Below the pieces are notes generated by a model. The model searched no databases, was not told the DNA's origin, and saw only the letters and a program-made list of their open reading frames with translations. Positions 32,083 to 48,746 of a stretch of 64,000 nucleotides of DNA are shown here, piece after piece (positions within the stretch are counted from its first letter, which is position 1; every line of letters starts with the position of its first letter). The position numbers and the translations under genes were made by a program. The stretch comes from Verrucomicrobiota bacterium (lineage in GTDB: Bacteria > Verrucomicrobiota > Verrucomicrobiia > Chthoniobacterales > Chthoniobacteraceae): assembly GCA_009885995.1 (NCBI GenBank), contig VFJQ01000001.1, positions 35,646-99,645 on the forward strand, given 5' to 3'.

Positions 32083-32102
32083 TATGATTGCTTGCGATCA
32101 TA
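32083..32102. promoter_or_regulatory. Operator O1: TATGAT-N8-ATCATA palindrome upstream of BMC regulator
   Basis: Perfect 6-bp arms are separated by 8 bases. It lies 6 bases before the regulator's -10 box and between the divergent S4 gene and the regulator. It matches O2 perfectly in both arms. Confidence 0.75.
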
Positions 32103-32108
32103 ACGTGC

Positions 32109-32114
32109 TATCAT
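32109..32114 (+). promoter_or_regulatory. -10 box TATCAT of the BMC regulator
   Basis: TATCAT is followed by CGCGCC and GTG 32121. TTGCTT at 32088-32093, inside O1, is a possible -35 box with a 15-base spacer. The spacing predicts a leaderless mRNA. Confidence 0.4.
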
Positions 32115-32120
32115 CGCGCC

Positions 32121-33005
32121 GTGAAAGTGCCCATGCACGTGATCCAAGCCCGCCGGGAGAAGCTGGCGGCATTGATCGAGCAGCACCGCTTCCTCCCGGT
32201 GAAGGAGCTGTGCGCCCGGCTCGGAGTGTCGGAGGCGACTATGCGGCGGGACTTGGCCGCCTTGCACGGGGAGAAGCGGATCACTCGGACTTTCGGTGGA
32301 GCGCTCCGGGAGTTTAATGATCGGTTCCCTTCGTTTAGGGAGCGGCAAGGCCGGGCATCGCGCTCGAAGATGCGAGTGGCCAAGCTCGCCTTGAGCCTGC
32401 TCGAGCCGGGGAAGACCTATTTCTTCGATTCCGGCACCACGGTCTTCGCGATTGCCGAGGCGTTCCGCGAGGCACCGGTGACCCCGATCACGATCGTCAC
32501 TTCAAATCTGCCGGTCGGGGAGATGCTCGCGGCGATCCCGGGCGTGGAGGTCTTTCAACTCGCGGGGCAGCTCCTCCACCTCCAGTCCACGCTGCTAGGC
32601 GAGACGGCCAAGCGGAGCCTGGAGTTCTGGCGGTTCGACTGGGCGTTTCTCTCGACGGAAGGGATGATGCCGACCGGGCTGTGGAATTCGCAGATCGCCA
32701 TCGTCGAGCAGCAGAAGGCGGTGCTCCGCCGGAGCGCACGTCATGTCTTCTGTGTCGATGGATCGAAACTGAACCGGCAGGCTCCGCACTTCCTGATCGG
32801 GTGGAACCAACTCGACACGTTGCTCACGGATGTGCCGATGGAGAAGCTGCACGCGGCCGGCATTATGGTCGATCCCGCGCACTACCTTGGGCCGGAATCG
32901 GTCGTTTCAGATGAAGCAGAGGTCGCGCCCTCACCTGCCACAGAGCCGGCCCCGCCGGAGGGCAAAGCTACAGGCACGGGGGATCTGCCGGTTCATTTTT
33001 TATGA
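32121..33005 (+). CDS. DeoR/GlpR-family transcriptional regulator of the BMC locus
   Basis: The product (294 residues from GTG 32121; ATG 32133 is the alternative) has an N-terminal winged helix (RREKLAALIEQHRFLPVKELCARLGVSEATMRRDLAALHGEKRITRTFGGAL). A DeoRC ligand domain follows with the sugar-phosphate-binding pattern (TYFFDSGTTVFAIAEAF, IVTSNLPV, LLGETAKRSLEFWRFDWAFLSTEGM). Relatives repress sugar operons and are released by a phosphorylated sugar. It stands directly upstream of the BMC operon, with matching palindromes on both sides, and its stop codon lies inside O2. It is very likely the local repressor and autoregulated. A Pro/Ala-rich tail of ~30 residues is unusual. Confidence 0.92.
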   Translation: MKVPMHVIQARREKLAALIEQHRFLPVKELCARLGVSEATMRRDLAALHGEKRITRTFGGALREFNDRFPSFRERQGRASRSKMRVAKLALSLLEPGKTYFFDSGTTVFAIAEAFREAPVTPITIVTSNLPVGEMLAAIPGVEVFQLAGQLLHLQSTLLGETAKRSLEFWRFDWAFLSTEGMMPTGLWNSQIAIVEQQKAVLRRSARHVFCVDGSKLNRQAPHFLIGWNQLDTLLTDVPMEKLHAAGIMVDPAHYLGPESVVSDEAEVAPSPATEPAPPEGKATGTGDLPVHFL

Positions 33006-33020
33006 TCGGAAATAATCATA
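33001..33020. promoter_or_regulatory. Operator O2: TATGAT-N8-ATCATA palindrome at the end of the regulator gene
   Basis: Perfect arms with an 8-base spacer. It contains the TGA stop of the regulator and ends 9 bases before the -35 box of the BMC promoter. Confidence 0.78.
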
Positions 33021-33028
33021 TAAAGTCT

Positions 33029-33056
33029 TTGACGCGTAACGCGGAAGTTATATGAC
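33029..33056 (+). promoter_or_regulatory. BMC operon promoter (TTGACG-N16-TATGAC)
   Basis: The -35 TTGACG (33029-33034) and -10 TATGAC (33051-33056) are 16 bases apart. The -10 box is also the left arm of operator O3, so repressor bound there would block RNA polymerase. The first gene starts at 33089. Confidence 0.6.
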
Positions 33057-33070
33057 TGCGATCCGTCATT
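33051..33070. promoter_or_regulatory. Operator O3: TATGAC-N8-GTCATT palindrome over the -10 box
   Basis: It has the same 6-8-6 geometry as O1 and O2, with five of six arm positions complementary (TATGAC against GTCATT). It starts 50 bases after O2. Confidence 0.68.
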
Positions 33071-33088: not shown

Positions 33089-33763
33089 ATGAGCGCCACT
33101 CTCACTCCCAGCCGAACGTCCGTCGAAGCTCTCGTCCGGTCGGCGCTGTTCAAGCAACTCGGAAAGCAAGCGCCAGCAGAGGCGGCTCCGACACTTGTGG
33201 TGAACAGCTCCGCACGGCACATGCACATCTCGCCGGAGAATCTGGAGACGCTTTTCGGGCCGGGTGCGAAGCTCACCGTCCACAAGTGGCTCTACCAGGA
33301 AGGGCAATTCGCATCGGAGCAGACGGTCACGCTCATCGGGCCGCGGCGTCGCGTCATTCCTAGCCTCCGGATCCTTGGCCCGTGCCGAAACCTCACGCAG
33401 ATCGAGCTGGCGCTCACCGATGCGGTGCAACTCGGGATGGACATCCCGGTGAAGATGTCGGGCGACATCAAGGGCACACCGGGCGGATACGTCATGGGGC
33501 CGAAAGGGATGCTGGAGATGAAGGACGGCATCATCCGCGCGGCGCGGCACGTCCACATGTCACCGGCTGACGCGAAATTTTACGGTGTGAAGCACCTCGA
33601 CCGCATCACGCTCAAGGTCACCTCGCCATTCTGCAACACCCGCTTCGACGAACTGATCGTGCGCGTCGATCCCAGCTTCAAACTCGAGGTCCACATGGAC
33701 ACCGACGAAGCGAACGCCTGCGACCTCGAACGCGCGACGAAGGTCGAACTGATTAAATCTTAA
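33089..33763 (+). CDS. pduL: Phosphate acyltransferase PduL (BMC-associated)
   Basis: The 224-residue product has two PduL repeats, each with its zinc-binding His motif: SARHMHIS (41-48) and AARHVHMSP (151-159). It transfers the acyl group from CoA to phosphate, here probably lactyl- or propionyl-CoA to the acyl phosphate used by AckA, and so recycles CoA inside the shell. Residues ~10-26 (TSVEALVRSALFKQLGK) form an amphipathic helix before a flexible linker, as in known encapsulation peptides. It is first in the BMC operon. Confidence 0.94.
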   Translation: MSATLTPSRTSVEALVRSALFKQLGKQAPAEAAPTLVVNSSARHMHISPENLETLFGPGAKLTVHKWLYQEGQFASEQTVTLIGPRRRVIPSLRILGPCRNLTQIELALTDAVQLGMDIPVKMSGDIKGTPGGYVMGPKGMLEMKDGIIRAARHVHMSPADAKFYGVKHLDRITLKVTSPFCNTRFDELIVRVDPSFKLEVHMDTDEANACDLERATKVELIKS

Positions 33764-33786: not shown

Positions 33787-34056
33787 ATGAGCGAAGCAAT
33801 CGGACTAATCGAAACTCGCGGCTACGTGGGCCTGGTGGAAGCCAGTGACGCCATGGTCAAGGCCGCGAACGTGCAACTGGTCAAGTCAGTCCCAATCGGC
33901 GGCGGACTGATCACGACCATCGTCAAAGGCGATGTCGGCAGCGTCAAAGCCGCCGTCGAAGCGGGCAAGGAAGCCTCCAAGCGGATCGGCAACCTCGTCG
34001 CGTCGCACGTCATCGCGCGCCCGGGGCCTGACCTCCTCAAGTTCTTCACCTCCTAA
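33787..34056 (+). CDS. BMC-H shell protein 1
   Basis: The 89-residue product is a single BMC (Pf00936) domain: [31 protein letters not shown] at the start and [17 protein letters not shown] at the end. Six copies form a hexagonal tile of the microcompartment facet. It is the shortest of the three BMC-H proteins here. The residues expected near the pore read PIGGGL in place of the usual charged variants. Confidence 0.95.
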
Positions 34057-34075
34057 CCTCTACCAACCTACTACC
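34057..34075 (+). promoter_or_regulatory. G-free A/C-rich translation leader of BMC-H2
   Basis: All 19 bases between the BMC-H1 stop and the BMC-H2 start lack G (CCTCTACCAACC...). No Shine-Dalgarno sequence is present. Confidence 0.55.
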
Positions 34076-34381
34076 ATGCCTGGACAAGCACTCGGAATGA
34101 TCGAAACCAAAGGCCTCGTCGCCCAGTTCGAAGCAACTGACGCGATGATCAAAGCCGCCAACGTGGAACTCATCGGCTGGGAAAAAGTCGGCTCCGGATA
34201 CGTCAGCGTCTTCGTGCGCGGCGACGTCGCAGCGGTGAAAGCCGCGGTGGAAGCCGGCGCCACCGCCGCGAGCGCCATCGGCGAAGTGGTCGCCGTTCAT
34301 GTGATCCCGCGCCCGCACGACGACATCTACGGGCTCGGAAAATTCCTCGGCGGCAAACCGTCGAACGGCCCCACGAAGTAG
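34076..34381 (+). CDS. BMC-H shell protein 2
   Basis: ATG 34076 gives 101 residues with one BMC domain ([57 protein letters not shown]) and a short C-terminal tail ([15 protein letters not shown]). It forms hexamers in the shell facet. The KVGSGY pore loop differs from BMC-H1 and BMC-H3, so the three hexamers probably differ in what they let through. Confidence 0.95.
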
Positions 34382-34397
34382 TCGCGCAGTCTCCGCG

Positions 34398-35582
34398 ATG
34401 ACCGCCAATAAGATCCTCGTCGCCAATATCGGCAGCACGTCGTTCAAGTTCCGCTTGATCGAGATGCCAGGCGAGCGCGTGCTCGCAAATGGCGGCGTGG
34501 AGCGGATCGGTGGCGCGGAATCGACTTACAAATACCAAGTCGGCAACGACGTGGAGCAGAAGGGCGTGGCGGCATTGCCCGACCACGGCGCGGCGATCTC
34601 GCTGGTCGAGAAAGCACTCGGCGGTTTCGGCGAACTCGCCGCAGTCGGCTTCAAACCGGTGATGGCGCGCGGCATCTCGGGCACGCAGGTGCTCGACGAG
34701 CCCGTGCTGCGCGCGATGGAGGAGATCAACACGCTCCTTCCCGCGCACAACCCGCCTTACGTCGCCGCGGTCCGCAGCTTCCACCGCTCGCACCCACAAC
34801 TGCCGTGCATCGGCACGTTCGAGACCGCGTTCTACGACGACGTGCCGGTAGAAAACGTGCGCTACCCGGTGCCGCGCGAGTGGGAGACGAAATACGGCAT
34901 CCGCCGCTACGGCTTCCACGGCGCGAGCCATCGGTTCGTCACGCAGCGTTGCGCCGAACTGCGCGGCACGGACCAGCTCCGCATCATCTCCTGCCACCTC
35001 GGCGGGAGCAGTTCGATCGCGTGCGTGCGCAATGGCAAGGCCATCGATTCGAGTTGGGGCATGACCCCGCAGAGCGGCCTGCCGCAGAACAATCGCGTGG
35101 GCGACTTCGATGTCTTCGCTCTCATCTACCTCGCTCGCGATCTTGGCCTCGGCATCGACGCCGTCGAAAAAGCGCTCACCTCGCAGTCCGGCCTCAAAGG
35201 CCTCTCCGGCCTCGCAACCGGCGACGTGCGCGACTTGCTCGAAGCATCCGCGAAAGGCAACACCGATGCGTCCATCGCACTCGATGTCTTCGTCGCCGCG
35301 ATCCGCAAATACATCGGCCAATTCCTCGTCGAGCTGAACGGCGCTGACGTGCTCATCTTCACCGCCGGCATTGCGGAGAACAACCCGATGCTCCGCGAGA
35401 AAATCTGCGCGAACCTCGACTTCTGCGGCCTCGAACTCGACCGCGACGCGAACAACCACACGCGCGCCAACGAAGCCATCATCTCCACGCCGCGCTCGAA
35501 AATCGAAGTGCGCGTCATCCCCACCAACGAAGAACTCATCATCGCCCGCAACGCGTGGGCCAAGCTTTCAACCCTCAACTAA
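34398..35582 (+). CDS. ackA: Acetate kinase-like acyl kinase of the BMC (divergent AckA)
   Basis: The 394-residue product is full length for acetate kinase (KILVANIGSTSFKFRLI, AHNPPYVAAVR, IRRYGFHGASHRF, FTAGIAENNPMLRE, NEELIIAR). It would make ATP from the acyl phosphate produced by PduL. Compared with the Methanosarcina enzyme by eye, the catalytic Asp148 block FDTAFH reads FETAFY (Asp to Glu), the Arg91 block HRVVHGGE reads FKPVMARG, and HLGNG reads HLGGS. Asn7, His123, His180, Arg241 and Glu384 equivalents are kept. The changes may reflect a bulkier acyl phosphate such as lactyl phosphate. That is inference. Confidence 0.88.
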   Translation: MTANKILVANIGSTSFKFRLIEMPGERVLANGGVERIGGAESTYKYQVGNDVEQKGVAALPDHGAAISLVEKALGGFGELAAVGFKPVMARGISGTQVLDEPVLRAMEEINTLLPAHNPPYVAAVRSFHRSHPQLPCIGTFETAFYDDVPVENVRYPVPREWETKYGIRRYGFHGASHRFVTQRCAELRGTDQLRIISCHLGGSSSIACVRNGKAIDSSWGMTPQSGLPQNNRVGDFDVFALIYLARDLGLGIDAVEKALTSQSGLKGLSGLATGDVRDLLEASAKGNTDASIALDVFVAAIRKYIGQFLVELNGADVLIFTAGIAENNPMLREKICANLDFCGLELDRDANNHTRANEAIISTPRSKIEVRVIPTNEELIIARNAWAKLSTLN

Positions 35583-35599
35583 CCCAACAACCAAAACCT
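35583..35599 (+). promoter_or_regulatory. G-free A/C-rich translation leader of BMC-H3
   Basis: All 17 bases (CCCAACAACCAAAACCT) between the ackA stop and the start of BMC-H3 lack G. It resembles the leaders at 33764 and 34057. Confidence 0.55.
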
Positions 35600-35881
35600 A
35601 TGGCACAACAAGCAATCGGAATGATCGAAACACGCGGCCTCGTCGCACTCGTCGAGGCAACTGACGCGATGCTCAAATCGGCCAACGTCGAACTCGTCGG
35701 CCCCATCACCCAGGTCGGCAACGCGATGGTGACCGTCTGCGTCACCGGCGACGTCGCTGCCGTCAAAGCCGCGACCGAAGCCGGCCGCAATGCCGCGCAG
35801 TCACTTGGCGAAATCGTCAGCGTCAGCGTCATCGCGCGCCCGCACAACGACCTCGGCGCAGTCCTGCCGAAGGCGAAGTAA
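35600..35881 (+). CDS. BMC-H shell protein 3
   Basis: ATG 35600 gives 93 residues with one BMC domain ([72 protein letters not shown]). It forms hexamers. It is close in sequence to BMC-H2, so the two probably arose by duplication. The ackA gene lies between them. Confidence 0.95.
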   Translation: MAQQAIGMIETRGLVALVEATDAMLKSANVELVGPITQVGNAMVTVCVTGDVAAVKAATEAGRNAAQSLGEIVSVSVIARPHNDLGAVLPKAK

Positions 35882-35888
35882 TCGCAAC

Positions 35889-36197
35889 ATGATCCTCGCC
35901 CGGGTCGAAGGCAGCGTCGTTGCGACGAAGAAGAACACGAAGATGACGGGGAATAAATTCCTCCTCGTCCGTCCGCTCGTGATCGACTCCGCGGACGCGA
36001 AAACGTGGAAGCCCGGCGTGACCACGCTCGTGGCCGTGGACAGCCTCGGCGCGGGTGAAGGTGAGATCGTCCTCGTCGTCCAGGGCAGCTCCGCGCGCCT
36101 CGCTGCCGACGACAAGGACTCGCCCGTCGATGCCGTCGTGATCGGCCTCGTGGACACGGTCGATATCGGAAAACACATCCTCTACAAGGCGCACTAA
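35889..36197 (+). CDS. BMC-P (EutN/CcmL) vertex protein 1
   Basis: ATG 35889 gives 102 residues of the EutN/CcmL family (ILARVEGSVVATKKNTKMTGNKFLLVRPL, AVDSLGAGEGEIVLVVQGSSAR, DAVVIGLVDTVDI). Such proteins form pentamers that cap the vertices of the icosahedral shell. It is one of three paralogues in this operon, as is typical of PVM-type loci. Confidence 0.95.
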   Translation: MILARVEGSVVATKKNTKMTGNKFLLVRPLVIDSADAKTWKPGVTTLVAVDSLGAGEGEIVLVVQGSSARLAADDKDSPVDAVVIGLVDTVDIGKHILYKAH

Positions 36198-36209
36198 CCG
36201 CATACTTAA

Positions 36210-37640
36210 ATGGCAACGTTGGACGAAAGAATCGTATCGAGAGTCGTGAGCGAAGTGCTCGCGCGTTTGCAGTCGCAGACCAAGGTCGCGTCGTCGCGGC
36301 AGAGCAGCTTCGGCGTTTACGACAAGATGGAAGACGCGTGCGAAGCCGCGCACAGCTCGTTTGAAAAGCTGCGCAACCTCGGCGTGAACGCCCGCAAGCA
36401 GGCGATCAACGTCATCCGCCGCATGTGCGTCGCGAAGGCGAAGGAGTGGGGCGAGATCGAATTCGCGGAGACAAAGATCGGCCGACTCGACCACAAGATC
36501 GAGAAGCTCAAGATTTGTGGAGACCTCGTGCCGGGCGTCGAATTCATGGAGCGCCACGCATTCAGCGGCGACTTCGGCCTGACCGTGATCGACTTCGCGC
36601 CGTGGGGCGTCATCGGCGCGGTGACGCCTTCGACGCACAGCGTCCCGACGCTCACCGGCAACGCGATCAACATGATCGCATCGGGCAACGCCGCTGTCTT
36701 CAACACGCACCCGGCCGCCGCGGGTTGCGCCGCGCTCGCGATCCGCAGCTACAACGAAGGCATCTTCCAGGAGATCGGCATCAGCGACCTGCTCACCACG
36801 GTGGCGAAGCCGACGCTCGAAACCTTCGACACGATGTGCAAGCACGCGAAGGTGAAGCTGCTCTGCGTCACCGGCGGCCCCGCGGTCGTCGCCGCGGCGA
36901 TGAAAACCGGCAAGCGCGCCGTCTGCGCGGGACCAGGGAATCCGCCGGTCGTCGTCGATGAAACCGCCGACCTCGCCAACGCCGCGAAGTGCATCATCCA
37001 GGGCGCGAGCTACGACAACAACCTGCTCTGCATCGGCGAGAAGGAAGTGTTCGTCGTCGAGAGCGTGGCTGACAAACTTTTGGCCGAGCTGAAGAAAGCC
37101 GGCGCCGTGCAACTCGACGCGAAGCAGATCGAGGCGCTCGCGGAGAAAGCGTTCGTGTTCCCGCAGGGCAAAGGCGCGGGCTGCCCGCATCCGGTCGTGA
37201 ATCGCGACCTCGTCGGACGCGACGCCGCAGTGCTCGCGAGAGCGATCGGCCTCAGCGTGCCGCCCGCGACGCAGCTCCTCTTCGGCGAGACGAAGGAAGA
37301 TCACATCTTCGTCGATGAAGAGCAGATGATGCCCTTCATCCCGATCGTGCGCGTCGCGAATGTGGACGAGGGCATCGCCGCCGCGATCCGCGCCGAGCAC
37401 AATTACAAACACACGGCGATCATGCACTCCACGAACATCAAGGCGCTCACGAAAATGGCGCAGGTCGTGGACACCACGCTCTTCATCAAGAACGGCCCGT
37501 GCATGACCGGCCTCGGCCTCGGCGGCGAAGGTTTCCTCAGCTTCTCCGTCGCCACGCCGACCGGCGAAGGCGTGACCACCCCGATGACGTTCACCCGCTC
37601 ACGCCGCTGCGTGATGGTCGAGGAACTCAACCTGTTCTAA
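36210..37640 (+). CDS. CoA-acylating aldehyde dehydrogenase (PduP-like), BMC signature enzyme
   Basis: The 476-residue product oxidises an aldehyde to acyl-CoA with NAD+; in PVM-type compartments the substrate is L-lactaldehyde. The active Cys is C274 in DNNLLCIGEKEV. The NAD-binding text includes PSTHSVPTLTGNAINMIASGNAAVFN and VTGGPAVVAAAM. Residues ~3-20 (LDERIVSRVVSEVLARLQ) form an amphipathic helix followed by a variable linker, the classical N-terminal encapsulation peptide. It joins PduL and AckA in a linear route to ATP. Confidence 0.95.
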   Translation: MATLDERIVSRVVSEVLARLQSQTKVASSRQSSFGVYDKMEDACEAAHSSFEKLRNLGVNARKQAINVIRRMCVAKAKEWGEIEFAETKIGRLDHKIEKLKICGDLVPGVEFMERHAFSGDFGLTVIDFAPWGVIGAVTPSTHSVPTLTGNAINMIASGNAAVFNTHPAAAGCAALAIRSYNEGIFQEIGISDLLTTVAKPTLETFDTMCKHAKVKLLCVTGGPAVVAAAMKTGKRAVCAGPGNPPVVVDETADLANAAKCIIQGASYDNNLLCIGEKEVFVVESVADKLLAELKKAGAVQLDAKQIEALAEKAFVFPQGKGAGCPHPVVNRDLVGRDAAVLARAIGLSVPPATQLLFGETKEDHIFVDEEQMMPFIPIVRVANVDEGIAAAIRAEHNYKHTAIMHSTNIKALTKMAQVVDTTLFIKNGPCMTGLGLGGEGFLSFSVATPTGEGVTTPMTFTRSRRCVMVEELNLF

Positions 37641-37904
37641 ATGCGCCTCGCCACGATCCACGGCTACGCCACTTCGACGGTCAAGCACCGCAGCCTGGAA
37701 GGCTGGCGCTTGCTGATCGCGATACCGGAGAGCCCGGATCTCGCGCCACAAATCGTGCTCGATTCGCTCGGTGCCGGCATCGGTCAGCGCGTGCTGATCT
37801 CCAGCGATGGCAGCGAAGCGCGAAAGATGGTGAAAGACGAACGCAGCCCCGCGCGCTGGACCGTGATGGGCATCATCGATCCGGAAAGGGATCTCGCGAT
37901 ATGA
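37641..37904 (+). CDS. BMC-P (EutN/CcmL) vertex protein 2
   Basis: The 87-residue product begins immediately after the dehydrogenase stop (RLATIHGYATSTVKHRSLEGWRLLIAIP, VLDSLGAGIGQRVLISSDGSEARKMV). It is the shortest of the three pentamer proteins and overlaps the third by 4 bases (ATGA). Confidence 0.93.
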   Translation: MRLATIHGYATSTVKHRSLEGWRLLIAIPESPDLAPQIVLDSLGAGIGQRVLISSDGSEARKMVKDERSPARWTVMGIIDPERDLAI

Positions 37905-38179
37905 GGATGGGCACCGTCATCGGTCGCGTGACTCTTTCCGTGCGCCACAAGCGCTACTCCGGCGAGCGCCTGCTGCTCACGTTGCCGTGGAGGACCGACA
38001 CCTTCAAAGGCGTGGAGAAGCACGACCCGGCCATCGTCGTTTACGACCAACTCGGCGCGGGCGTCGGCCAGCACATCGCCATCAGCGAAGGCCGCGAAGC
38101 CGCCTGCCCTTTCCCGACCCCGACACCCGTGGACGCCTACTGCGCCGCGCTCGTCGATGAACACTTTTACAAAGAATAA
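37901..38179 (+). CDS. BMC-P (EutN/CcmL) vertex protein 3
   Basis: ATG 37901 gives 92 residues (MGTVIGRVTLSVRHKRYSGERLLLTLPW, VYDQLGAGVGQHIAISEGREAACPF). It has a C-terminal tail after a Pro-rich turn (FPTPTPVDAYCAALVDEHFYKE). The ORF-track start at 37499 is a shadow of the dehydrogenase. Three different vertex proteins suggest mixed or alternative pentamers. Confidence 0.93.
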   Translation: MRMGTVIGRVTLSVRHKRYSGERLLLTLPWRTDTFKGVEKHDPAIVVYDQLGAGVGQHIAISEGREAACPFPTPTPVDAYCAALVDEHFYKE

Positions 38180-38182
38180 TCT

Positions 38183-39256
38183 ATGACCCTGATCGCACAA
38201 AAAGAAGCCGCAGAGATCGTGAAGACCGGCGCAAAAGAGTTCCGCCAAAACAGCGAAACGCGCCTCACACCCGGCGCGAAAGACATCCTCAACGACGCTG
38301 GCGTGAAGATCGTCTTCGACGCGAGCGCCGCCCCCGCTGCTGCGGCCGCCGCATCGTCGCAAGGCTACGCACCCGTGGCCGCGCCGGCGCCTTACAGCCC
38401 GGATGACGTCCGCCTCTTCAACTCGAAGGAAGCGAACGAAATCAAAGAACAGATCTGCGACATCGGTCGCCGCATCTGGGCGCGCGAATACTGCGACGGC
38501 AACGGCGGCAACATCTCCGCTCGCCTCGCGCCGGATCGCTTCATCTGCACGCCGACCGGCGTGAGCAAAGGGTTCATGAAGCCCGACATGATGTGCATGG
38601 TCGATGGCAAGGGCACGCAACTCGGCGGCACGTGGAAGCGCTCCAGCGAGATCACCACGCACATGGCCATCTTCCACTCGACGCCGGAAGCGATGAGCGT
38701 CTGCCACGCGCATCCGTGCCACGCCGGCGCGTTCGCGATCAAGGGCATGCAACCGCCGCCACGCCTCATCCCCGAGCTGGAAGTGTTCGTCGGCACCGTC
38801 GCCTACACGCCTTACAAGACGCCGGGCTCGCCGGAAATCGCCGCGGAGATTTTCCCGCTCGCGCCGAAGCACCAGTCCATCCTCATGGGCAACCACGGCG
38901 TCATCTGCTGGGGCAAGTCGGTCGAGGACGCGTATTTCAAAATGGAGATCACCGACGCGTATTGCCGCACGGTCATTCTCGCGCAGGCCATCCCCGGCAG
39001 CGCGTCGATCCCATGCGACAAGCTGCCCGAACTGCTCAACATCAAGAGAACGCTCGGCCTGCCCGACGACCGCTACGACCTCAAGCCCGCGGGCCTGTGC
39101 GAAGTCGATCCGTGGCAGCAGATGTGCGGTTCGCACGGCTGCTCGTCGCCGGTCACGCCCTTCAATCCGATGACCAACGACAACACGAGCGACGCCGACA
39201 TCGAAGCGCTCGTGCAGAAGCTGACCGACGAAATCGTCGCAAAGCTCGGGAAATGA
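38183..39256 (+). CDS. Class II aldolase (fuculose-/rhamnulose-1-phosphate aldolase type) with targeting helices
   Basis: The 357-residue product has a class II aldolase/adducin domain from ~80 on. Zinc ligands are H175 and H177 (CHAHPCHAGAF) and H238 (GNHGVICWG). SSEITTH holds the likely catalytic Glu156. It would split L-fuculose- or L-rhamnulose-1-phosphate into DHAP and lactaldehyde, the substrate of the BMC dehydrogenase. Residues 1-45 (QKEAAEIVKTGAKEFRQN, LTPGAKDILNDAGVKIVF) and the last ~20 (IEALVQKLTDEIVAKLG) are helical extensions that look like cargo-targeting segments, joined by an Ala/Pro-rich linker. The sugar cannot be told from sequence. Confidence 0.9.
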   Translation: MTLIAQKEAAEIVKTGAKEFRQNSETRLTPGAKDILNDAGVKIVFDASAAPAAAAAASSQGYAPVAAPAPYSPDDVRLFNSKEANEIKEQICDIGRRIWAREYCDGNGGNISARLAPDRFICTPTGVSKGFMKPDMMCMVDGKGTQLGGTWKRSSEITTHMAIFHSTPEAMSVCHAHPCHAGAFAIKGMQPPPRLIPELEVFVGTVAYTPYKTPGSPEIAAEIFPLAPKHQSILMGNHGVICWGKSVEDAYFKMEITDAYCRTVILAQAIPGSASIPCDKLPELLNIKRTLGLPDDRYDLKPAGLCEVDPWQQMCGSHGCSSPVTPFNPMTNDNTSDADIEALVQKLTDEIVAKLGK

Positions 39257-39273
39257 GCACGCTGAGTTGCGTT

Positions 39274-39472
39274 TTGCCCCGGAGGGGCAGCCAGAGATTA
39301 GCCCCGGGTGAAACCCGGGGTATCCCAGGCAAGACGGATGCACCCCGGACGGGGTGCGAGGAATCACTGACACAGGCGACGTTTCCTTCCACCCCGTCCG
39401 GGGTGGATACGTTGGTGGGCGTGAACCGGGGGTGTTACCCCCGGCTAATTTCTGGCTGCCCCTCCGGGGCAA
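39274..39472. repeat. 199-bp imperfect inverted repeat inside the BMC operon
   Basis: The left arm (from TTGCCCCGGAGGGGCAGCC) and the reverse complement of the right arm align over ~95 bases, including CCAGAGATTAGCC/CCAGAAATTAGCC and CACCCCGGACGGGGTG. About 10 bases separate the arms. It lies between the aldolase and PduS-like genes and has no coding role. The text looks like a dispersed repeat family rather than a single-copy regulator. Confidence 0.8.
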
Positions 39473-39509
39473 TTCGCTCGCGCCTTTCGTGGGCCAACCC
39501 AAACTCACC

Positions 39510-40826
39510 ATGTCTTTAGTCGACCAAGTCAGACTCGCAGGCGTCGTCGGCGCGGGCGGCGGCGGATTTCCCGCGCACGTGAAGCTCGGCTCGAAAGCCG
39601 AGATCATCATCGCCAACGGCGCCGAGTGCGAACCGCTGCTGCACAAGGACGCAGCGGTGATGGAACACTACGCGGCGGATGTCGTGCGTGGCGTCGAACT
39701 CTGCATGGCTACGACCGGCGCGAGCGACGGCGTTATCGGCATCAAGGCGAAGAAAAAGAAAGCGGTCGAAGCGATCGAGGACGCCTGCCGCGGGACGCGT
39801 GTGCGCGTGCAACTCCTCGGCGACTTCTATCCCGCGGGCGACGAATACGACCTCGTCTATACCGTCACCGGGAAACTCATCCCGCCCGCCGGCCTGCCTA
39901 TCCACGTCGGCGCAATCGTCAGCAACGTCGAGACCCTCGTGAACATCGCGCAGGCCGTCGATGGCAAGCCGGTCACGCACAAGACCATCACCATCGCCGG
40001 CGCCGTCGCCGAGCCGGTGACGCTCACCGTGCCCATTGGCATTAGCTTCCGCGAATGCATCGCGGCAGCAGGTGGCGCGACTTGCGACGATCCCGTGATG
40101 GCCATCGGCGGGCTGATGATGGGTGAGACGACCGACAATCTCGACGCGCCCGTCATCAAGACGAGCACTGGGGCGATCATCCTCGCGCGCACGCATCACG
40201 TGATGGAGAAGAAGTTCAAACCCGCCAAGGTGCAGGCTTCGATCGGCAAGTCCGCGTGCGACCAGTGCCGCTACTGCACCGAGTTCTGCCCGCGCTTTCT
40301 TCTCGGCTATCAAGTGGAGCCGCACCAGGTCATGCGCACGCTCGCCTTCACCGGCACAGGCGCGGAGCGGTTCAACGAATGGGCCGCGCTCTGCTGCTCG
40401 TGCGGCCTCTGCACGCTCTACGCCTGCCCGGAAGAGCTGTATCCGAAGGAAGCCTGCGACGACTCGAAAGCCATCCTGCGGAAGCAGAACTTCAAGTGGA
40501 CCGGAAAGACCGACATCAAAGTCCATCCGATGCGCGATGGCCGACACGTGCCGATCAAGACGCTGATGAAGAAGATGCACGTCGAGCAATACGACAACCC
40601 CGCGCCACTTCGCGCCGGCATCGTCGAGACGCGGCAGCTCGTCCTCCCGCTCAAGCAAAGCGCCGGCGGCCCGACCATCCCGCTCGTGAAGGTCGGCGAC
40701 ACCGTGAAAGCCGGCCAGCCCATCTCCGAGCCCGCGCCGAACGCCCTTGGCGCCATCATCCACGCGCCCTTCGCCGCCAAGGTCACCGCCCTCGCGGACG
40801 ACCGCATCACCTTGACCAAGTCATGA
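39510..40826 (+). CDS. PduS-like/RnfC-related Fe-S flavoprotein of the BMC
   Basis: ATG 39510 gives 438 residues. The N-terminal half is RnfC/Nqo1-like (RLAGVVGAGGGGFPAHVKL, IANGAECEPLLHKD), which binds flavin and NADH. Two [4Fe-4S] sites follow: CDQCRYCTEFCP from C250 and CCSCGLCTLYACP. PduS reduces cobalamin in propanediol compartments; here no B12-dependent enzyme is present, so it may move electrons across the shell to regenerate NAD+, with the BMC-T Fe-S pore as partner. That is inference. A G-free leader (CCAACCCAAACTCACC) precedes the ATG. Confidence 0.9.
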   Translation: MSLVDQVRLAGVVGAGGGGFPAHVKLGSKAEIIIANGAECEPLLHKDAAVMEHYAADVVRGVELCMATTGASDGVIGIKAKKKKAVEAIEDACRGTRVRVQLLGDFYPAGDEYDLVYTVTGKLIPPAGLPIHVGAIVSNVETLVNIAQAVDGKPVTHKTITIAGAVAEPVTLTVPIGISFRECIAAAGGATCDDPVMAIGGLMMGETTDNLDAPVIKTSTGAIILARTHHVMEKKFKPAKVQASIGKSACDQCRYCTEFCPRFLLGYQVEPHQVMRTLAFTGTGAERFNEWAALCCSCGLCTLYACPEELYPKEACDDSKAILRKQNFKWTGKTDIKVHPMRDGRHVPIKTLMKKMHVEQYDNPAPLRAGIVETRQLVLPLKQSAGGPTIPLVKVGDTVKAGQPISEPAPNALGAIIHAPFAAKVTALADDRITLTKS

Positions 40827-41374
40827 AAGAAAAGTCCGTAGGCCTCATCGAACTCTCCAGCATCGCCGCCGGTTTCTCCGTCGCCGATTCCGCGCTGAAG
40901 GCGGGCAACGTGAAGCTGATGCTCTCGCGCTCCATCTGCTCGGGCAAATACATGATCCTCATCGCCGGCGACACCGCGAGCGTCGAGGCCGCCATCGCCA
41001 CCGGCAATGAAACCGCCGGCGGTTGCCTCATCGACCACATCGTCATCGCGAACCTGCACCCCGACGTGCTCAGCGCGATCGGCCGCACCTCGCCCGTCGA
41101 GCCCACCGGCGCGCTCGGCATCTTCGAGAGCTTCAATGTCGCCACGCTCATCAAAGCCGCCGACGCCGCCGCGAAGGCCGCCGACGTGCAACTCCTCGAA
41201 GTCCGCCTCGCCATGGCCCTCGGCGGAAAAGCCTTCTGCACCCTCACCGGCGACGTGAGCTCAGTCCAGGCCGCCGTCGCCGCCGGCCGCGCCGTCATCG
41301 CCGAAGCCGGCGTCCTCGTGAACGCCGTCGTGATCCCGCGTCCGCACCCGGACGTGTATCGCGAGGTGATCTGA
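40823..41374 (+). CDS. BMC-T shell protein, PduT-like with conserved pore cysteine
   Basis: ATG 40823 overlaps the previous stop (ATGA) and gives 183 residues with two fused BMC domains (KSVGLIELSSIAAGFSVADSALKAGNVKLML; ALGIFESFNVATLIKAADAAAKAADVQLLEV). Trimers form pseudohexamers. C39 in SRSICSGKYM sits where PduT has the Cys that holds a [4Fe-4S] cluster at the trimer pore. The direct coupling to the PduS-like gene supports an electron conduit through the shell. It is the last gene of the BMC operon. Confidence 0.94.
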   Translation: MKEKSVGLIELSSIAAGFSVADSALKAGNVKLMLSRSICSGKYMILIAGDTASVEAAIATGNETAGGCLIDHIVIANLHPDVLSAIGRTSPVEPTGALGIFESFNVATLIKAADAAAKAADVQLLEVRLAMALGGKAFCTLTGDVSSVQAAVAAGRAVIAEAGVLVNAVVIPRPHPDVYREVI

Positions 41375-41507: not shown

Positions 41508-42974
41508 ATGATTACCCGGATCCAAATCGACGGATTCAAGAACCTGCGAAACGTTGATATTCGCCTTGATGCGTTCACGTGTGTCGCGGGCGGGAATGGT
41601 GTCGGGAAATCAAACCTGTTCGACGCCATCCGTTTTCTGAGTGCGCTGGCGGACGAGAAGAAGCTCGACGAAGCAGCCCGCACGGTTCGCGACGAGAATG
41701 ACAGAAGCGCAGACGCGAAAGCGATTTTCTTCCAGACGCCGAGCGGCAAGCTCTGCAAGGCGAGTTTCACAGTGGACATGGTGATTCCGGTCGAAGCGAG
41801 CGACGACCTCGGCCAAGCGGCGAAGGGCAAGACCACATTCGTCCGCTACGAATTGGAAGTCAGACACCGCGAGACTCTCGATGAGCGCCAGCAATACGGA
41901 GAGATTCAAATCCTGCGTGAGTCACTGATGCCGCTGCCCATTAGCAAGGCGTTCTCGGCGCTCGGATTCGTCCACTCCCCAGCATGGCGTCAGTCGGTCA
42001 TCACAGGTCGCCGCACCGTCCCGTTCATCTCGACTGCGGCAAAGGGCGATGAAATCATCATCAAAGTTCATCAAGACGGCGAAGGCAGGCGTGGATTGGG
42101 GCGGGCCTACGAACGTCCGGCGCGCAAGTTGCCACGAACGGTGCTTTCGTCGGCTGCAGCGGACAACCCCACGATGATGTGCGTGAAAGCCGAGATGCGT
42201 TCGTGGGAACTTCTCCAACTCGAACCTTCGGCAATGCGGCGGGCCGATTCGCGGAGCCAAGAACCCATCATGGACTCAAACGGAGCGCACTTGCCGGCCA
42301 CGCTGAACCGTCTCGCGGGGCGCGGGACAAAGGACAAACTCGCAGCAAACTTGTATCAGGAAATCGGCAACCGGCTTGCCGAGTTGCTGGGCGATGTGCG
42401 CCAAATCGAAGTCGAGGACAACGAACGAACGGACACGCTCACCATTTTCGCGGTCGGGAAGGACGGAACCCGGATTCCCGCGCGCTCGCTGTCCGACGGC
42501 ACGTTGCGCTTCCTCGCGCTGCTGGTGAAGGAACTCGACACGCAAAGCCGTGGAGTCATCTGCCTCGAAGAGCCGGAGAACGGCATCCATCCACAGCGAA
42601 TCCCGGCAATGCTCAAGCTGCTCCGCGATATCGCCGCCGACACCACTTCGCCAAGCGATGACGACAACCCGCTCCGACAGGTCATCTTCAACACTCACTC
42701 GCCATCCATCGTCCAACAGCTCGAATCGGACTCTCTTCTCATCGCCGAAAGCGCGCCGTTTCTCTGCGAAGGCAAGCAAGTGGCCACGGTTCGTTTTGGA
42801 TGCCTGCGGAACTCATGGAGATCAAAGTTGCCCGAGCGCCCACACGTCGCGTCACTTTCCAAGCTGCTCGCCTACCTCCGCCCGTCGTCTGCCGCTGTGA
42901 ACGGCGATACCCCGCGTAAACCACGGCTCATTGACAGCGAAGAAACCAAACAGTTCTTGCTCAAACTCGCGTAG
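41508..42974 (+). CDS. AAA/ABC-type ATPase (AAA_15/AAA_21, OLD-like) of a putative defence pair
   Basis: The 488-residue product has Walker A GGNGVGKSNLF (28-38), an ABC-type signature LSDGTLRFLALL near 327, Walker B GVICLEEPENGIHP near 347-357 and an H-loop FNTHSPSIVQQL. This is the RecF/OLD-type ATPase layout. It lacks a fused TOPRIM domain, and the gene 6 bases downstream could supply one. Two-gene ATPase plus TOPRIM-type systems (for example PARIS and other OLD-like systems) act in phage defence. The base composition is less extreme in GC3 than that of its neighbours, which suggests transfer. Confidence 0.82.
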   Translation: MITRIQIDGFKNLRNVDIRLDAFTCVAGGNGVGKSNLFDAIRFLSALADEKKLDEAARTVRDENDRSADAKAIFFQTPSGKLCKASFTVDMVIPVEASDDLGQAAKGKTTFVRYELEVRHRETLDERQQYGEIQILRESLMPLPISKAFSALGFVHSPAWRQSVITGRRTVPFISTAAKGDEIIIKVHQDGEGRRGLGRAYERPARKLPRTVLSSAAADNPTMMCVKAEMRSWELLQLEPSAMRRADSRSQEPIMDSNGAHLPATLNRLAGRGTKDKLAANLYQEIGNRLAELLGDVRQIEVEDNERTDTLTIFAVGKDGTRIPARSLSDGTLRFLALLVKELDTQSRGVICLEEPENGIHPQRIPAMLKLLRDIAADTTSPSDDDNPLRQVIFNTHSPSIVQQLESDSLLIAESAPFLCEGKQVATVRFGCLRNSWRSKLPERPHVASLSKLLAYLRPSSAAVNGDTPRKPRLIDSEETKQFLLKLA

Positions 42975-42980
42975 CAGCAA

Positions 42981-43604
42981 ATGCGGCACATCCAGTTCAC
43001 GCTTTTCGCCGACGGCCCCACTGACTGCGCTCTTCTTCCGATTCTCGACTGGCTCATACGCGAAACACACGGGCCGGAAACAGTCGCACACGAGTTCTTG
43101 TCTAAACCCGAGTTGCGTTCCGACTTGAGTTTTCCCGACAGACTTCAAACCGCGCTGGAGCTTGCGCCGTGCGATGTGCTTTTCGTTCACCGCGACGCAG
43201 AGAAGCAGGACCCTCAGCTTCGCTACGAAGAAATCACCGCCGCCGTCACCGCGCTCCAATTGCCGGGAACGAAAATCCCCCACGTGTGCATCGTCCCGAT
43301 TCGGATGACGGAGGCTTGGCTTCTCACCGACGAGGGAGCCATCCGGAAAGCGGCAGGTCGGCCGAATAGCACTGATCCTCTCGTTCTGCCAAAGCTGACT
43401 CGGCTTGAAAGTTTACCCGACCCAAAGGCGACGCTGCATCAGCTCCTGCGCGAAGCGTCAGGGAAGAAAGGGAGACGTCTGGCGTCATTCGATGTGCGCG
43501 ATGCGGCAGCATTGGTTTCCGACTGCACTCCTTCGTTTGCCCCCTTGCGTCAGTTGGGCGCGTTTGCGCGGCTGGAGGCCGACTTGCGGAAGCTGTCGCT
43601 ATAA
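42981..43604 (+). CDS. DUF4276/TOPRIM-like partner of the AAA ATPase
   Basis: The 207-residue product begins with a TOPRIM-like strand and loop (QFTLFADGPTDCALLPILDWL), in which Asp stands where TOPRIM proteins usually have catalytic Glu. A second acidic block follows (CDVLFVHRDAEKQD), as in the DxD part of TOPRIM, then PIRMTEAWLLTDEGAIRKAAGRP, which resembles DUF4276 proteins. It probably acts as a metal-dependent nuclease effector controlled by the upstream ATPase. The family call is by pattern only. Confidence 0.62.
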   Translation: MRHIQFTLFADGPTDCALLPILDWLIRETHGPETVAHEFLSKPELRSDLSFPDRLQTALELAPCDVLFVHRDAEKQDPQLRYEEITAAVTALQLPGTKIPHVCIVPIRMTEAWLLTDEGAIRKAAGRPNSTDPLVLPKLTRLESLPDPKATLHQLLREASGKKGRRLASFDVRDAAALVSDCTPSFAPLRQLGAFARLEADLRKLSL

Positions 43605-43656
43605 GGCAAGCCCGCAACTGCTCGCGTCATGGGAACCGCTGAACTATGCAGACGGG

Positions 43657-46056
43657 ATGAGCCCGCAGACTGACCTCGCCGCCCAACTCGCCACCGCTCG
43701 CGCGGAGTGTGCGAGCCTGGCGGAGGAGAATCGGCGGTTGCGGCAGCGGCATGGCGAAGGGGAAGCGCCAGCGCAGGCCGTGCAGCACGACGCGAAGCTT
43801 GCCGTCACTCACCACTCGGCGCCAGCGGAGAAGGTCGCGCTTTTCCGCGCGCTGTTCCGAGGGCGGGAGGATGTGTTTGCGGTGCGGTGGGAGAATCACG
43901 GCAAGGTGGGATACTCGCCGGCGTGCATCCGCGACTGGAACGTGCGCGATGCGGACGGGAAGCCGAAGCGCACGCTCATCCCACTCACGGACGATGCGAT
44001 CTTCGACCACCTCGCCGGGCGGCATGTCGCCGGCGTGTATCCGCTGCAGCACGATGAGACGTGCTGGTTCCTCGCTGCGGATTTCGACAAGGCCGCGTGG
44101 CAGGACGACGCGGCGGCGTTCCTCGCGGCGTGCGACGAGTGGAGCGTGCCGGCGGCGCTGGAGCGGTCGCGCTCCGGCAAGGGCGCGCACGTTTGGATGT
44201 TCTTTGCCGAGCCGGTCGCAGCGTCGATCGCGCGCAAACTCGGCTCCGCGCTGCTCACGCGCGCGATGGAGCGCCGGCACCAACTCGGCCTCGATTCCTA
44301 CGACCGCCTTTTCCCGAATCAGGACACGATGCCGAAGGGCGGCTTCGGCAACCTCATCGCGCTTCCGCTCCAGCACGCCGCGCGTGAACAAGGCAACAGC
44401 GTCTTCGTGGACGCCGCGTTCGCGCCGCACGCGGACCAGTGGGCGTTTCTTTCGTCGGTGAAAAGAACGCCGCCTGCACAGCTCGAATCGCTCGTGCGCG
44501 AAGCCGAACGCACGGGCCGTGTCATCGGTCTGCGCCTGCCGCTCGACGACGACGACGCCGCCGAGCCGTGGAAGCTCGCGCCTTCGCGCACGCGGAAGGA
44601 GCCACCGATCACCGAGCCGCTGCCCGCGAGCGTCGGCGTCGTCCGCGCGAATCTCGTCTTCATCGAAAAGACGGGGTTGCCCTCCGCGATGCTGAACCGC
44701 CTTCTGCGGCTCGCTGCGTTTCAGAATCCCGAGTTCTACCGCGCTCAGGCCATGCGGCTCTCCACGTTTGGAAAGCCGCGCGTCATTCGCTGCGGCGAGG
44801 AATTTCCGCTCCACATCGCTCTCCCGCGCGGCTGCCTCGATGACGTGCTCTCGCTGCTGAAGGCGCACAGGATCACGGCGAAAGTGCGCGACGAGCGTTT
44901 CGCGGGCACGCCGATCAGCGCAGCGTTTCGTGGCGAACTCCGCCCGGAACAACTCCGCGCCGCCGACGCGCTGCTCGCGCACGACGACGGCGTGCTCTCC
45001 GCCACGACCGCCTTCGGCAAAACGGTGGTCGCCGCGCACATCATCGCTGGTCGCGGGGTGAACACGCTCGTGCTCGTCCATCGCCGGCAGCTCATGGACC
45101 AGTGGCGCGAACGGCTCGCCACTTTCCTCGACCTCCCGCCCACGGACATCGGCCAAATCGGCGGCGGCAAAACGAAACGCACCGGCATCGTGGATGTCGC
45201 CGTCATCCAGAGCCTCGTGCGCAAAGGCGCGGTGAAGGACTTCGTTGCCGAATACGGCCATGTCGTCGTGGACGAATGTCATCACCTGTCCGCGTTCAGC
45301 TTCGAGCAAGTCATGCGTGCGGCGAAGGCGCGCCACATTCTCGGCCTCACCGCAACGCCGTTTCGCAAAGACGGCCATCACCCGATCATCTTCATGCAGT
45401 GCGGTCCCGTGCGGCACGTCGTGGACGCCCGCGTGCAGGCGGCAGCGAGGCCTTTCCGCCACATCGTCCTCCCGCGCGCGACCACCTTTCATGCACCGCC
45501 GGACGCGGTGGAGATTCACCAATTCTATGCCGCGCTCGCCGCTGATCCGCGCCGCAACGATTTCATCATCGCCGACGTGCTCGCCGCCGTCCGCGAAGGC
45601 CGCAGTCCGCTCGTCCTCACCGAACGCACCGCGCATCTCGACGAGCTCGCTGCCCGGCTTCACTGCGAAGTGCCGCACATTATTACTCTGCGCGGAGGCA
45701 TGGGCGAAAAGCAGCGTCGCGCGCTCGCCGACACACTCGCCGCGATCCCCGCCGACGCCTCGCGCGTGCTGCTCGCCACGGGGCGCTACATCGGCGAGGG
45801 CTTCGACGACGCGCGCCTCGACACGCTCTTTCTCGCCATGCCCGTCTCATGGCGCGGCACGCTCGCGCAATACGCCGGTCGCCTCCACCGCCTGCGCGAC
45901 AGCAAACGCGAAGTTCGCATCCTCGACTACGTGGACGGCGCCGTCCCGCTTTTCAACGCGATGTTCGACAAGCGCCGCAAAGGCTACGCGGCCATCGGCT
46001 ACGACGTGGTGATCGATGAAGCGCAGACTTGCCCCACCGCGGCGGCGCGCGGTTGA
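43657..46056 (+). CDS. TOTE-family archaeo-eukaryotic primase fused to a superfamily 2 helicase
   Basis: ATG 43657 gives 799 residues. A short coiled coil (CASLAEENRRLRQRHGE) precedes the AEP-type primase domain: KVALFRALFRGREDVFAVRWE, metal-binding FLAADFDKAAW near 138-148, and ERSRSGKGAHVWMFF near 168. The text YDRLFPNQDTMPKGGFGNLIALPLQ is diagnostic of the TOTE conflict-system primase. The helicase half has SATTAFGKTVVAA near 448, VVDECHHLSAF near 538, LTATPFRKDG and a C-terminal helicase motif (IGEGFDDARLDTLFLAMP, QYAGRLHR). TOTE systems are predicted to respond to invading or transposing DNA. The ORF appears intact. Confidence 0.9.
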   Translation: MSPQTDLAAQLATARAECASLAEENRRLRQRHGEGEAPAQAVQHDAKLAVTHHSAPAEKVALFRALFRGREDVFAVRWENHGKVGYSPACIRDWNVRDADGKPKRTLIPLTDDAIFDHLAGRHVAGVYPLQHDETCWFLAADFDKAAWQDDAAAFLAACDEWSVPAALERSRSGKGAHVWMFFAEPVAASIARKLGSALLTRAMERRHQLGLDSYDRLFPNQDTMPKGGFGNLIALPLQHAAREQGNSVFVDAAFAPHADQWAFLSSVKRTPPAQLESLVREAERTGRVIGLRLPLDDDDAAEPWKLAPSRTRKEPPITEPLPASVGVVRANLVFIEKTGLPSAMLNRLLRLAAFQNPEFYRAQAMRLSTFGKPRVIRCGEEFPLHIALPRGCLDDVLSLLKAHRITAKVRDERFAGTPISAAFRGELRPEQLRAADALLAHDDGVLSATTAFGKTVVAAHIIAGRGVNTLVLVHRRQLMDQWRERLATFLDLPPTDIGQIGGGKTKRTGIVDVAVIQSLVRKGAVKDFVAEYGHVVVDECHHLSAFSFEQVMRAAKARHILGLTATPFRKDGHHPIIFMQCGPVRHVVDARVQAAARPFRHIVLPRATTFHAPPDAVEIHQFYAALAADPRRNDFIIADVLAAVREGRSPLVLTERTAHLDELAARLHCEVPHIITLRGGMGEKQRRALADTLAAIPADASRVLLATGRYIGEGFDDARLDTLFLAMPVSWRGTLAQYAGRLHRLRDSKREVRILDYVDGAVPLFNAMFDKRRKGYAAIGYDVVIDEAQTCPTAAARG

Positions 46057-46064
46057 GTCAGTGC

Positions 46065-48746
46065 ATGGCTGTCAAAAAATCCTCGCAACTCACGCTCCAC
46101 GACCGGCTCTCGCGGCTTACGATTCAGCAGGCGGCGAAATGGCTCGGGCCGAATGGCGCGAAGCTGCTCGCGGATGCGGGCAAGGACCAGAGCGAGATCG
46201 AGCCGACGGATGTTTCATGGCCGGATGATGTGACCTTTCAAATGCTGCTGCGTCCGGCGAGGCGCGAGCCCGTGGTGGTGACGCTCACGCGTGCGGCGGC
46301 GGGGCGCGATGGGGTGCGCTGGGCTTGCAGCGAGCGGAACGATGCGCCGGCGTGGGTTGCGATCGTGCTGGCGTTTTTGCTGGAGGAAAAGACGGCGCTT
46401 GGGCTCGCAGCGCCGCCGCCGGATGAGCAGAAGCTACCGCTGGAACTCCTCGACGAAGCAGCGCTCAAACGCCGCGCGCTTGCCGAGCGCGAGCAGCGGG
46501 CGCACGAGGAGAAGATGGACGTGTCGCGCATCGCGGGTGGTGAGGGACCGTGGCGTGACTACATCGTGAAAAGTGCGCTCTCGGGGAAGTCGTATCGCGT
46601 CGCGCTGCGTGGACTGGCGCGCGGGGAGTCGTTTTGCGCGTGTCCGGATTTTCGCAAGAACACGCTCGGCACTTGCAAGCATCTGCTCCGCGTCATCGCG
46701 TGGGCGAGGAAGAAGCACACGCCCGCTGAGATGGCGCGCGCGTGGGTGCCGGATCGGCTCGCGATTCACATGCGCTACGATGGCGAGCCGCGGCTCGCGC
46801 TCGAAATCCCGCCGAAAACATGGCCGGGCACGATGAAGCTGCTCAAGCGTTGGCGCGGCCGCTGCGCGACGACGGATGACGAGCGGCGGAGCTTTTCTCG
46901 CTCGTGCAAAAGCTCGATTCGGCTGGCGAGAGCGTGCTCGTTTTCCCCGATGCCGAGGAGCGCATCGGCCACGCGCTGCACCGGCGGCGGCTCGCGGGCG
47001 TCGTCGCGGAGATCCGCAACAATCCCGCGTCGCATCCGCTGCGGACGACGCTTTTGAAATGCGAACTGCTGCCCTACCAGCTCGACGGCATCGCCTTCGC
47101 CGCGGGGGCGGGGCGCGCGGTGCTCGCGGATGAAATGGGTCTCGGCAAAACGATTCAGGGCGTCGGCGTCGCGGAGTTCCTCGCGCACAACGCTGGCATC
47201 GCGCGCGTGCTCATCGTCTGCCCCGCGTCGCTGAAATCGCAGTGGAAGGCGGAGATTGAAAAGTTCAGCGGGCGCAGCGTGCAGCTCGTCGCGGGGCGGC
47301 TCGCCGAGCGCGAGGCGCAGTATGCCAGCCCGGCGTTTTTCACCGTGTGCAACTACGAGCAGGTGCTCCGCGACTTCCTGCCCATCGAGCGCGCGGCGTG
47401 GGATCTCATCATCCTCGACGAAGGCCAGCGCATCAAAAACTGGGAGGCGCAGACCGCGCGCATCATCAAGTCGCTCCGTTCGCGCTTCGCCCTCGTGCTC
47501 ACCGGCACGCCGATCGAAAACCGGCTCGATGACCTTTTTAGCATTGTCGAGTTCATCGACGACCAGCGGCTCGGGCCAGCGTTCCGTTTCCTCCACCGCC
47601 ACCGCACGGCGAGCGAGACAGGGAAAGTGCTCGGCTACAAAAATCTCGCCGCGCTCCGCCGTGCCATCGCGCCCGTGCTCCTGCGCCGCACGCGTGTGAG
47701 CGTCGCGCTCGACCTGCCGCCGCGCACGAAGGAAATCGTCCGCATCGCGCCGACCGACGAGCAGCTCAAGATGCACAATGCGCACTTGCAGGTCGTCGCG
47801 AGCATCACGTCGAAAAAGTTCATCACCGAGATGGACCTCATGCGCCTGCGCCGCGCGCATGGCGGCGGACAGCACCTTCCTCGTGGATAAACAGCCGCCC
47901 GGCTTTTCCTCGAAGCTCGAGCGCCTCGCCGAGTTGCTCGCCGCGCTCATCGCCGAGCCGGAGCGGAAAATCATCATCTTCAGCGAATGGACCACGATGC
48001 TGAACCTCATCGAGCCGGTGCTGAAAAACTTGCGCGCCGGCTTCGTGCGGCTCGACGGCTCCGTGCCGCAGGCGAAGCGCAAGCAGATCGTCGCCGAGTT
48101 CCAGCGCGAGGCGAAGTGCCGCGTCTTCCTAACCACGAACGCCGGCAGCACCGGCCTCAACCTGCAAGCCGCAGACACCGTCATCAACGTGGACCTCCCG
48201 TGGAACCCCGCGATGCTGGACCAGCGCATCGCCCGCGCGCACCGCATGGGGCAGCGGCGCAAAGTCCACGTCTATCTCCTCATCACCGAGCGCACCATCG
48301 AGGAGGGCCTGCTCGCCACGCTGGGCGCGAAGCACGAACTCGCCAACGCCGTCCTCGACCCCGACAGCGACCTCACGGAAGTCGAACTCCAAAGCGGCAC
48401 CGAAGCCCTCAAGCGCCGCCTTGAAATCCTGCTCGGCGCGCACGAAGCGGCGCCCGCCGACATCAGCGTGGAGCTGCGCGCGCGCGCCGACGCCGCCGCG
48501 CTCGCCGAGCGCAAAACGCGCGTCGCCGAAGCCGGTGGCCAGCTCCTCGGCGCAGCGTTCACTTTCCTCGGCCAGCTCATCCCCACCGCCGGCGAGCCAA
48601 ATCCCGCCGCTGCCGCCGCGATCCGCGAGCGCCTCAGCGAGTGTGTCGAGACCGGCGAAGACGGACGCCCGCGCCTGAACGTCACCTTGCCGAACGCCGA
48701 CGCGTTGAGCGCGCTCGCCGACGCGCTCGCGCGGCTGATGAAGTAG
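46065..48746 (+). pseudogene. SWIM-SNF2 family helicase, disrupted by two frameshifts
   Basis: Three open frames together encode one SNF2 protein. Frame A (46065 to ~46885) has the SWIM zinc finger FCACPDFRKNTLGTCKHLLR. Frame B (~46885 to ~47858) has LADEMGLGKTIQ, ILDEGQRIKNWE and LTGTPIENRLDDL. Frame C (~47858 to 48746) has FSEWTTMLNLIEPVLKN and TTNAGSTGLNLQAADTVINVDLPWNPAMLDQRIARAHRMGQ. The first break is consistent with one missing base in GAGCGGCGGAG, the second with two missing bases near GCGCGCATGGCG. The gene starts 8 bases after the TOTE gene. It may be a true pseudogene or carry assembly errors. Confidence 0.85.

Follow-up and report, generated by a model that had tools for sequence, protein, structure and literature searches.

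Three 20-bp palindromes (O1, O2 and O3) in the 64-kb stretch of DNA analysed here (the window) are very probably operators of the adjacent DeoR-family regulator, which would occlude a BMC promoter at O3, repress its own gene at O1, use O2 and a weak intragenic site (Oi) as auxiliary sites and be released by a sugar metabolite. The system is of a known kind. Its operator is new to the literature searched, in which none was found for verrucomicrobial BMC regulation; its symmetry is unlike that of known DeoR-type rhamnose regulators, and the additional intragenic site is likely. These sites provide a concrete, testable predicted operator for verrucomicrobial BMC regulation, and the ortholog-wide consensus can be used for annotating BMC and rhamnose regulons across Verrucomicrobiota. 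The features of the locus are as follows.

32083..32102, unstranded: O1, predicted operator 5' of the regulator gene, TATGATTGCTTGCGATCATA (ortholog-matrix score 22.2)
32121..33005, + strand: DeoR-family regulator gene (HTH_DeoR and DeoRC domains above Pfam cut-offs)
32316..32335, unstranded: Oi, weak operator-like site within the regulator gene, AATGATCGGTTCCCTTCGTT, 233 bp downstream of O1 (score 9.4)
33001..33020, unstranded: O2, predicted operator that covers the stop codon of the regulator, 50 bp upstream of O3 (score 25.2)
33029..33056, + strand: predicted BMC promoter (-35 TTGACG at 33029-33034, 16-bp spacer, -10 TATGAC at 33051-33056)
33051..33070, unstranded: O3, predicted operator, TATGACTGCGATCCGTCATT, with its left arm serving as the -10 box of the BMC promoter (score 16.1)
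33089..33763, + strand: PduL-type phosphate propanoyltransferase, first gene of the BMC operon (PTAC, E 2.4e-66)
33787..41374, + strand: remainder of the BMC operon (BMC-H shell proteins, acetate kinase, EutN-type proteins and others)

Regulator gene and BMC operon

Both regulator domains exceed the Pfam gathering score (PF08220, E 2.1e-15; PF00455, E 5.7e-32), which places the protein in the DeoR family. Its start is probably GTG 32121 rather than ATG 32133, because the MKVP frame upstream of 32133 is conserved in orthologs. The operon region 33787..41374 also encodes a CoA-acylating aldehyde dehydrogenase, a class II aldolase, an RnfC/PduS-like protein and BMC-T. The nearest relatives belong to the Chthoniobacteraceae and other Verrucomicrobiota. 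Directly downstream of the BMC operon, the region 41508-48746 encodes an AAA ATPase resembling the MADS3/AbiEii type (below the NCBIfam cut-off) together with an AEP-TOTE primase and a helicase, and is perhaps a defence or conflict island.

Sequence and uniqueness of the palindromes

An earlier, sequence-only reading of the window had described three 6-8-6 palindromes beginning at 32083, 33001 and 33051, and all three are present: O1 and O2 have the form TATGAT-N8-ATCATA and O3 the form TATGAC-N8-GTCATT. It had placed O1 at the regulator promoter, with O2 covering the stop codon of the regulator (33003-33005, TGA), O3 overlapping the -10 box in TTGACG-N16-TATGAC, and 50 bp between O2 and O3; these placements hold, and the positions of all three sites recur in relatives. 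Its view that the spacers share no sequence was inexact, since position 8 is G in every site and position 13 is C in both O1 and O3. Nor is the spacer free in orthologs, where the arms continue as TATGAYTGA-NN-TCARTCATA. The ortholog site consensus is TTATATGATTGA-NN-TCAATCATATAA; its arms continue inward, and recognition would therefore reach into the "spacer". The window sites are weaker than this consensus at the inner "spacer" positions.

When up to two mismatches are allowed, the pattern has nine matches in the window against a shuffled mean of 3.8, and the three exact sites stand out. Across the whole draft genome of the Chthoniobacter-like host (181 contigs totalling 5.94 Mb, 66% GC, 91% complete), exact matches to TATGAYN8RTCATW occur at O1, O2 and O3 only. 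The genome scan that the sequence-only reading had proposed thus shows the motif to be well above background frequency, with five strand hits, all within 1 kb, versus about 0.46 expected from base composition; the reversed control has no match in the same genome. Searched with a profile of 56 ortholog sites, this genome again yields only O1, O2 and O3 at E values up to 10; that search scored 150 of 754 first-look candidates and may have missed weak sites. The regulon in the host genome appears local, with three strong sites only.

Conservation and co-occurrence with the regulator

A single-sequence search with the regulator across the genome contigs returned no matches, and an alignment-based search found 365 relatives, 80 of which were kept. 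Conservation in orthologous loci, on which the sequence-only reading had staked its model, is borne out: TATGA-N10-TCATA lies upstream of 22 of 79 orthologs as an exact match (shuffled mean 0.01), of 44 with at most one mismatch (0.46) and of 58 with at most two (4.95). The O1 counterpart is located some 50-57 bp upstream of the aligned start in most orthologs. A symmetric matrix built from 42 ortholog sites, none of them from the window, recovers O1, O2 and O3 at the scores listed above, the promoter site O3 being the lowest of the three. The sole other positive score in the 64 kb is at 32316 (9.4, Oi), and the next best is -3.2.

Sites and regulator also occur together. Among 57 genomes (the host and 56 relatives; ortholog cut-off E below 1e-40), a profile match is present in 21 of 23 genomes with a regulator ortholog versus 1 of 34 without one (Fisher p 2.5e-12, for genomes that are related rather than independent and with a training set that included many of the regulator-linked sites). 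The single match without a detected ortholog comes from G028, an incomplete genome, and lies in front of a PduL/BMC operon (L135). Five genomes carry regulator and BMC operon on separate contigs and still have a site in the PduL promoter (G001, L123; G008, L122; G011, L137; G044, L121; G045, L133); none of these sites, nor that of L135, was in the training set. The sites go with the regulator ortholog before unrelated operons, containing either BMC genes or RhaEW-type rhamnose genes. In Opitutaceae EW11 (L147) the site precedes a gene judged to be of RhaEW type by reading its sequence rather than by domain search.

Geometry of the BMC promoter

The arrangement TTGACn-N16-TATGAY, or a close variant, with the -10 box formed by the left arm of O3, is found in 27 of 31 site-bearing PduL promoters. 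This constant geometry of -35 box, -10 box and O3 fits promoter occlusion, and overlap of an operator with the core promoter of its target, a feature of autoregulated repressors, is found here for a predicted promoter. A generic promoter scan missed the BMC promoter, since it requires a final T that TATGAC does not have.

O2 is present in 10 of the 31 PduL promoters, 50 bp (window) or 58-63 bp (the nine others) upstream of O3. Two loci, L135 and L137, have a site 61 bp upstream of O3 and no regulator gene adjacent to the operon. The idea that O2 is a mere product of the C-terminal codons of the regulator was rejected, as these loci keep O2 without an adjacent regulator. The sequence-only reading, which had placed O2 over the regulator stop codon, is corrected in this respect: O2 belongs to the BMC promoter. 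The O2-O3 spacings of 50 and 61 bp correspond to 4.76 and 5.81 turns at 10.5 bp, about one helical turn apart. The helical phase is thus roughly kept, which is consistent with phased binding and no proof of it. The cooperative binding that had been suggested for O2 and O3 would not be a general need, because most orthologous BMC promoters are without a recognisable O2. Two further loci, L066 and L067, have no site before PduL and two sites upstream of the regulator instead, as if the regulator and BMC genes formed one unit.

The intragenic site Oi

Oi, overlooked in the sequence-only reading, is matched in orthologs by stronger sites at the same codons. In many BMC-linked orthologs its counterpart lies about 233-237 bp after O1, within the codons of the peptide FN(D/E)RFPSF. 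Because this amino-acid sequence by itself already biases the DNA towards a partial palindrome (permuted mean near -4 bits), the test shuffled synonymous codons gene by gene. In ten representatives below 75% identity, codon choice exceeds chance with a combined p of about 1e-9; in ten orthologs away from BMC genes p is 0.21. None of 300 column-permuted palindromic matrices reached the true Z of 5.9 (largest 5.4), and the reversed matrix gave -0.9. In L040 and L042, where the regulator is not beside BMC genes, the same peptide is encoded by non-palindromic codons, with O1 kept and Oi gone. The host genome of L040 (G011) has a distant BMC operon (L137) that retains O2 and O3.

These results suggest that Oi is held by synonymous codon choice in BMC-linked orthologs, with the caveat that residual shared codon ancestry may contribute. 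That Oi is instead a by-product of the conserved peptide, without a regulatory role, is a possible but rather unlikely account: the bias of the peptide itself, the weakness of the window copy (9.4 bits, p 0.03 alone) and the lack of Oi in the BMC-linked orthologs L044, L045, L053 and L054 speak for it, whereas the codon bias specific to BMC-linked genes, the failure of every permuted matrix to reach the true value and the different codons of L040 and L042 speak against it.

Proposed mechanism and alternatives

From the arrangement of sites and genes, we infer binding, repression, an inducer, cooperativity and looping as follows. At O3 the bound regulator would mask the -10 box and block RNA polymerase at the BMC promoter; at O1 it would repress the gene that encodes it. 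The auxiliary operators would be O2, some five helical turns upstream of O3, and the weak Oi; they would probably raise the local repressor concentration through side-by-side or looped binding. A metabolite of the sugar pathway, bound by the DeoRC domain, would then release the repressor. The best candidates for this inducer are L-rhamnulose and rhamnulose- or fuculose-1-phosphate, because the regulator is akin to regulators sitting on rhamnose genes; since the Chloroflexus RhaR is released by L-rhamnulose, that sugar may be as good a candidate as the phosphates put forward in the sequence-only reading.

The DeoR protein, bound at the same sites, could activate the BMC operon, or both activate and repress it, instead of acting as a plain repressor. 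Some members of the family are named activators, an L-fucose operon activator model matches the protein weakly (below cut-off), and O2 lies upstream of the -35 box, where an activator could sit. This is nevertheless improbable, since O3 is on the -10 box next to a near-perfect -35 hexamer in 27 of the 31 promoters, the usual place of a repressor, and the upstream O2 is missing from most of them. It is more improbable still that some other DNA-binding protein, encoded at an unlinked locus, uses these sites and that the DeoR gene is a mere neighbour. The link between site and DeoR protein is predicted, and G028 has a site without a detected ortholog, but the sites track the regulator ortholog across genomes and also occur with it before unrelated operons, while the G028 site fronts a BMC operon in a genome that is incomplete. 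Least credible is that the palindromes act as RNA hairpins (terminators or attenuators) rather than as DNA operators. O2, an inverted repeat beside the stop codon, could terminate the transcript of the regulator; however, the stems are A+T-rich, the sequence itself and not merely its pairing is conserved, O3 contains the -10 box, O1 precedes the gene and a terminator scan calls none of the three sites. Repression by the adjacent DeoR regulator is thus strongly preferred.

Comparison with known regulators

Published DeoR-type RhaR regulators (Chloroflexus, Rhizobiales, Bacillales and Thermotogales) have direct-repeat operators with a 10-11 bp period; DeoR-type rhamnose regulators act as repressors, and the Chloroflexus one is released by L-rhamnulose (PMC3870299). 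The window regulator resembles RhaR in its family and in its apparently local, autoregulated regulon, but its predicted operator is a 20-bp palindrome rather than 10-11 bp direct repeats. A RhaEW-type gene lies near the regulator in about 24 ortholog loci of other Verrucomicrobiota (the query being an aldolase/dehydrogenase assigned from its sequence), which links the orthologs, though not the window, to rhamnose. RhaEW is absent from the host draft genome, where the sole match of the query is the aldolase of the window itself, at 35%, and a sugar isomerase and kinase feeding the pathway were not identified there. An isomerase/kinase locus on contig C48 of this genome was rejected, since no operator is present there (best score -6.9 bits) and the genes seem to belong to a different sugar pathway.

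The several operators of E. coli DeoR, Lac and Gal include one on the promoter and others hundreds of base pairs away or intragenic. The window system is similar in combining a promoter site with distant and intragenic ones, and differs in operator sequence.

In Planctopirus (Planctomyces) limnophila, the DeoR-family regulator PvmA heads a rhamnose/fucose BMC cluster; the PvmA/pvmB pair is rhamnose-responsive, no operator is given, and a PvmA/pvmB construct gave strong expression in E. coli when no inducer was present, a result that the authors interpret as repression (PMC11958385). As with PvmA, the window regulator gene is directly upstream of a PduL/BMC operon, with the promoter in the gap between regulator and operon. 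However, planctomycete BMC-linked DeoR regulators (P. limnophila PvmA not included) are only 27-33% identical to the window type, and the two groups form separate clades with support of 100/100. The palindrome is absent from planctomycete BMC-linked DeoR loci in 392 genomes titled as that phylum. In 14 such loci the direct-repeat z is 5.3 and the inverted-repeat z -0.3, while in the 79 window-type upstream regions the inverted 20-bp z is 13.4 and the direct 10/11-bp z 1.3. Upstream of the regulator start in planctomycete loci L163-L188 (locus positions about 1350-1490), 10/11-bp direct repeats occur without a palindrome, as in TGACAG-N4-TGATTG-N4-TGAAAG (L170).

A half-site likeness, TGAYNG, between the two groups was judged by eye only, without a planctomycete motif model. 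Operator symmetry may tentatively be viewed as differing by phylum, with TGAYNG head-to-tail every 10/11 bp in Planctomycetota and head-to-head in a 20-bp palindrome in Verrucomicrobiota; as part of the same tentative view, the verrucomicrobial BMC clade would keep the intragenic operator through its use of synonymous codons, and repression would then involve a loop across the regulator gene. Short DNA fragments can serve to test both the conserved operator/-10 overlap and the difference in symmetry from Planctomycetota.

Two further sites were noted in relatives. On contig C518 of G023, a near-perfect 26-bp operator palindrome, TTTTATGATTGCCTTCAATCATAAAA (L118, 1501-1526), seems to lie within coding sequence, with no BMC gene in view. 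On contig C15 of G061, an operator-type site (L142, 1501-1526) precedes an oxidoreductase-like gene with the N-terminus INAEEISRIVRRVIAEQQ, whose N-terminal helix resembles a BMC encapsulation peptide on sequence reading rather than domain search; this gene is a candidate unlinked member of the regulon.
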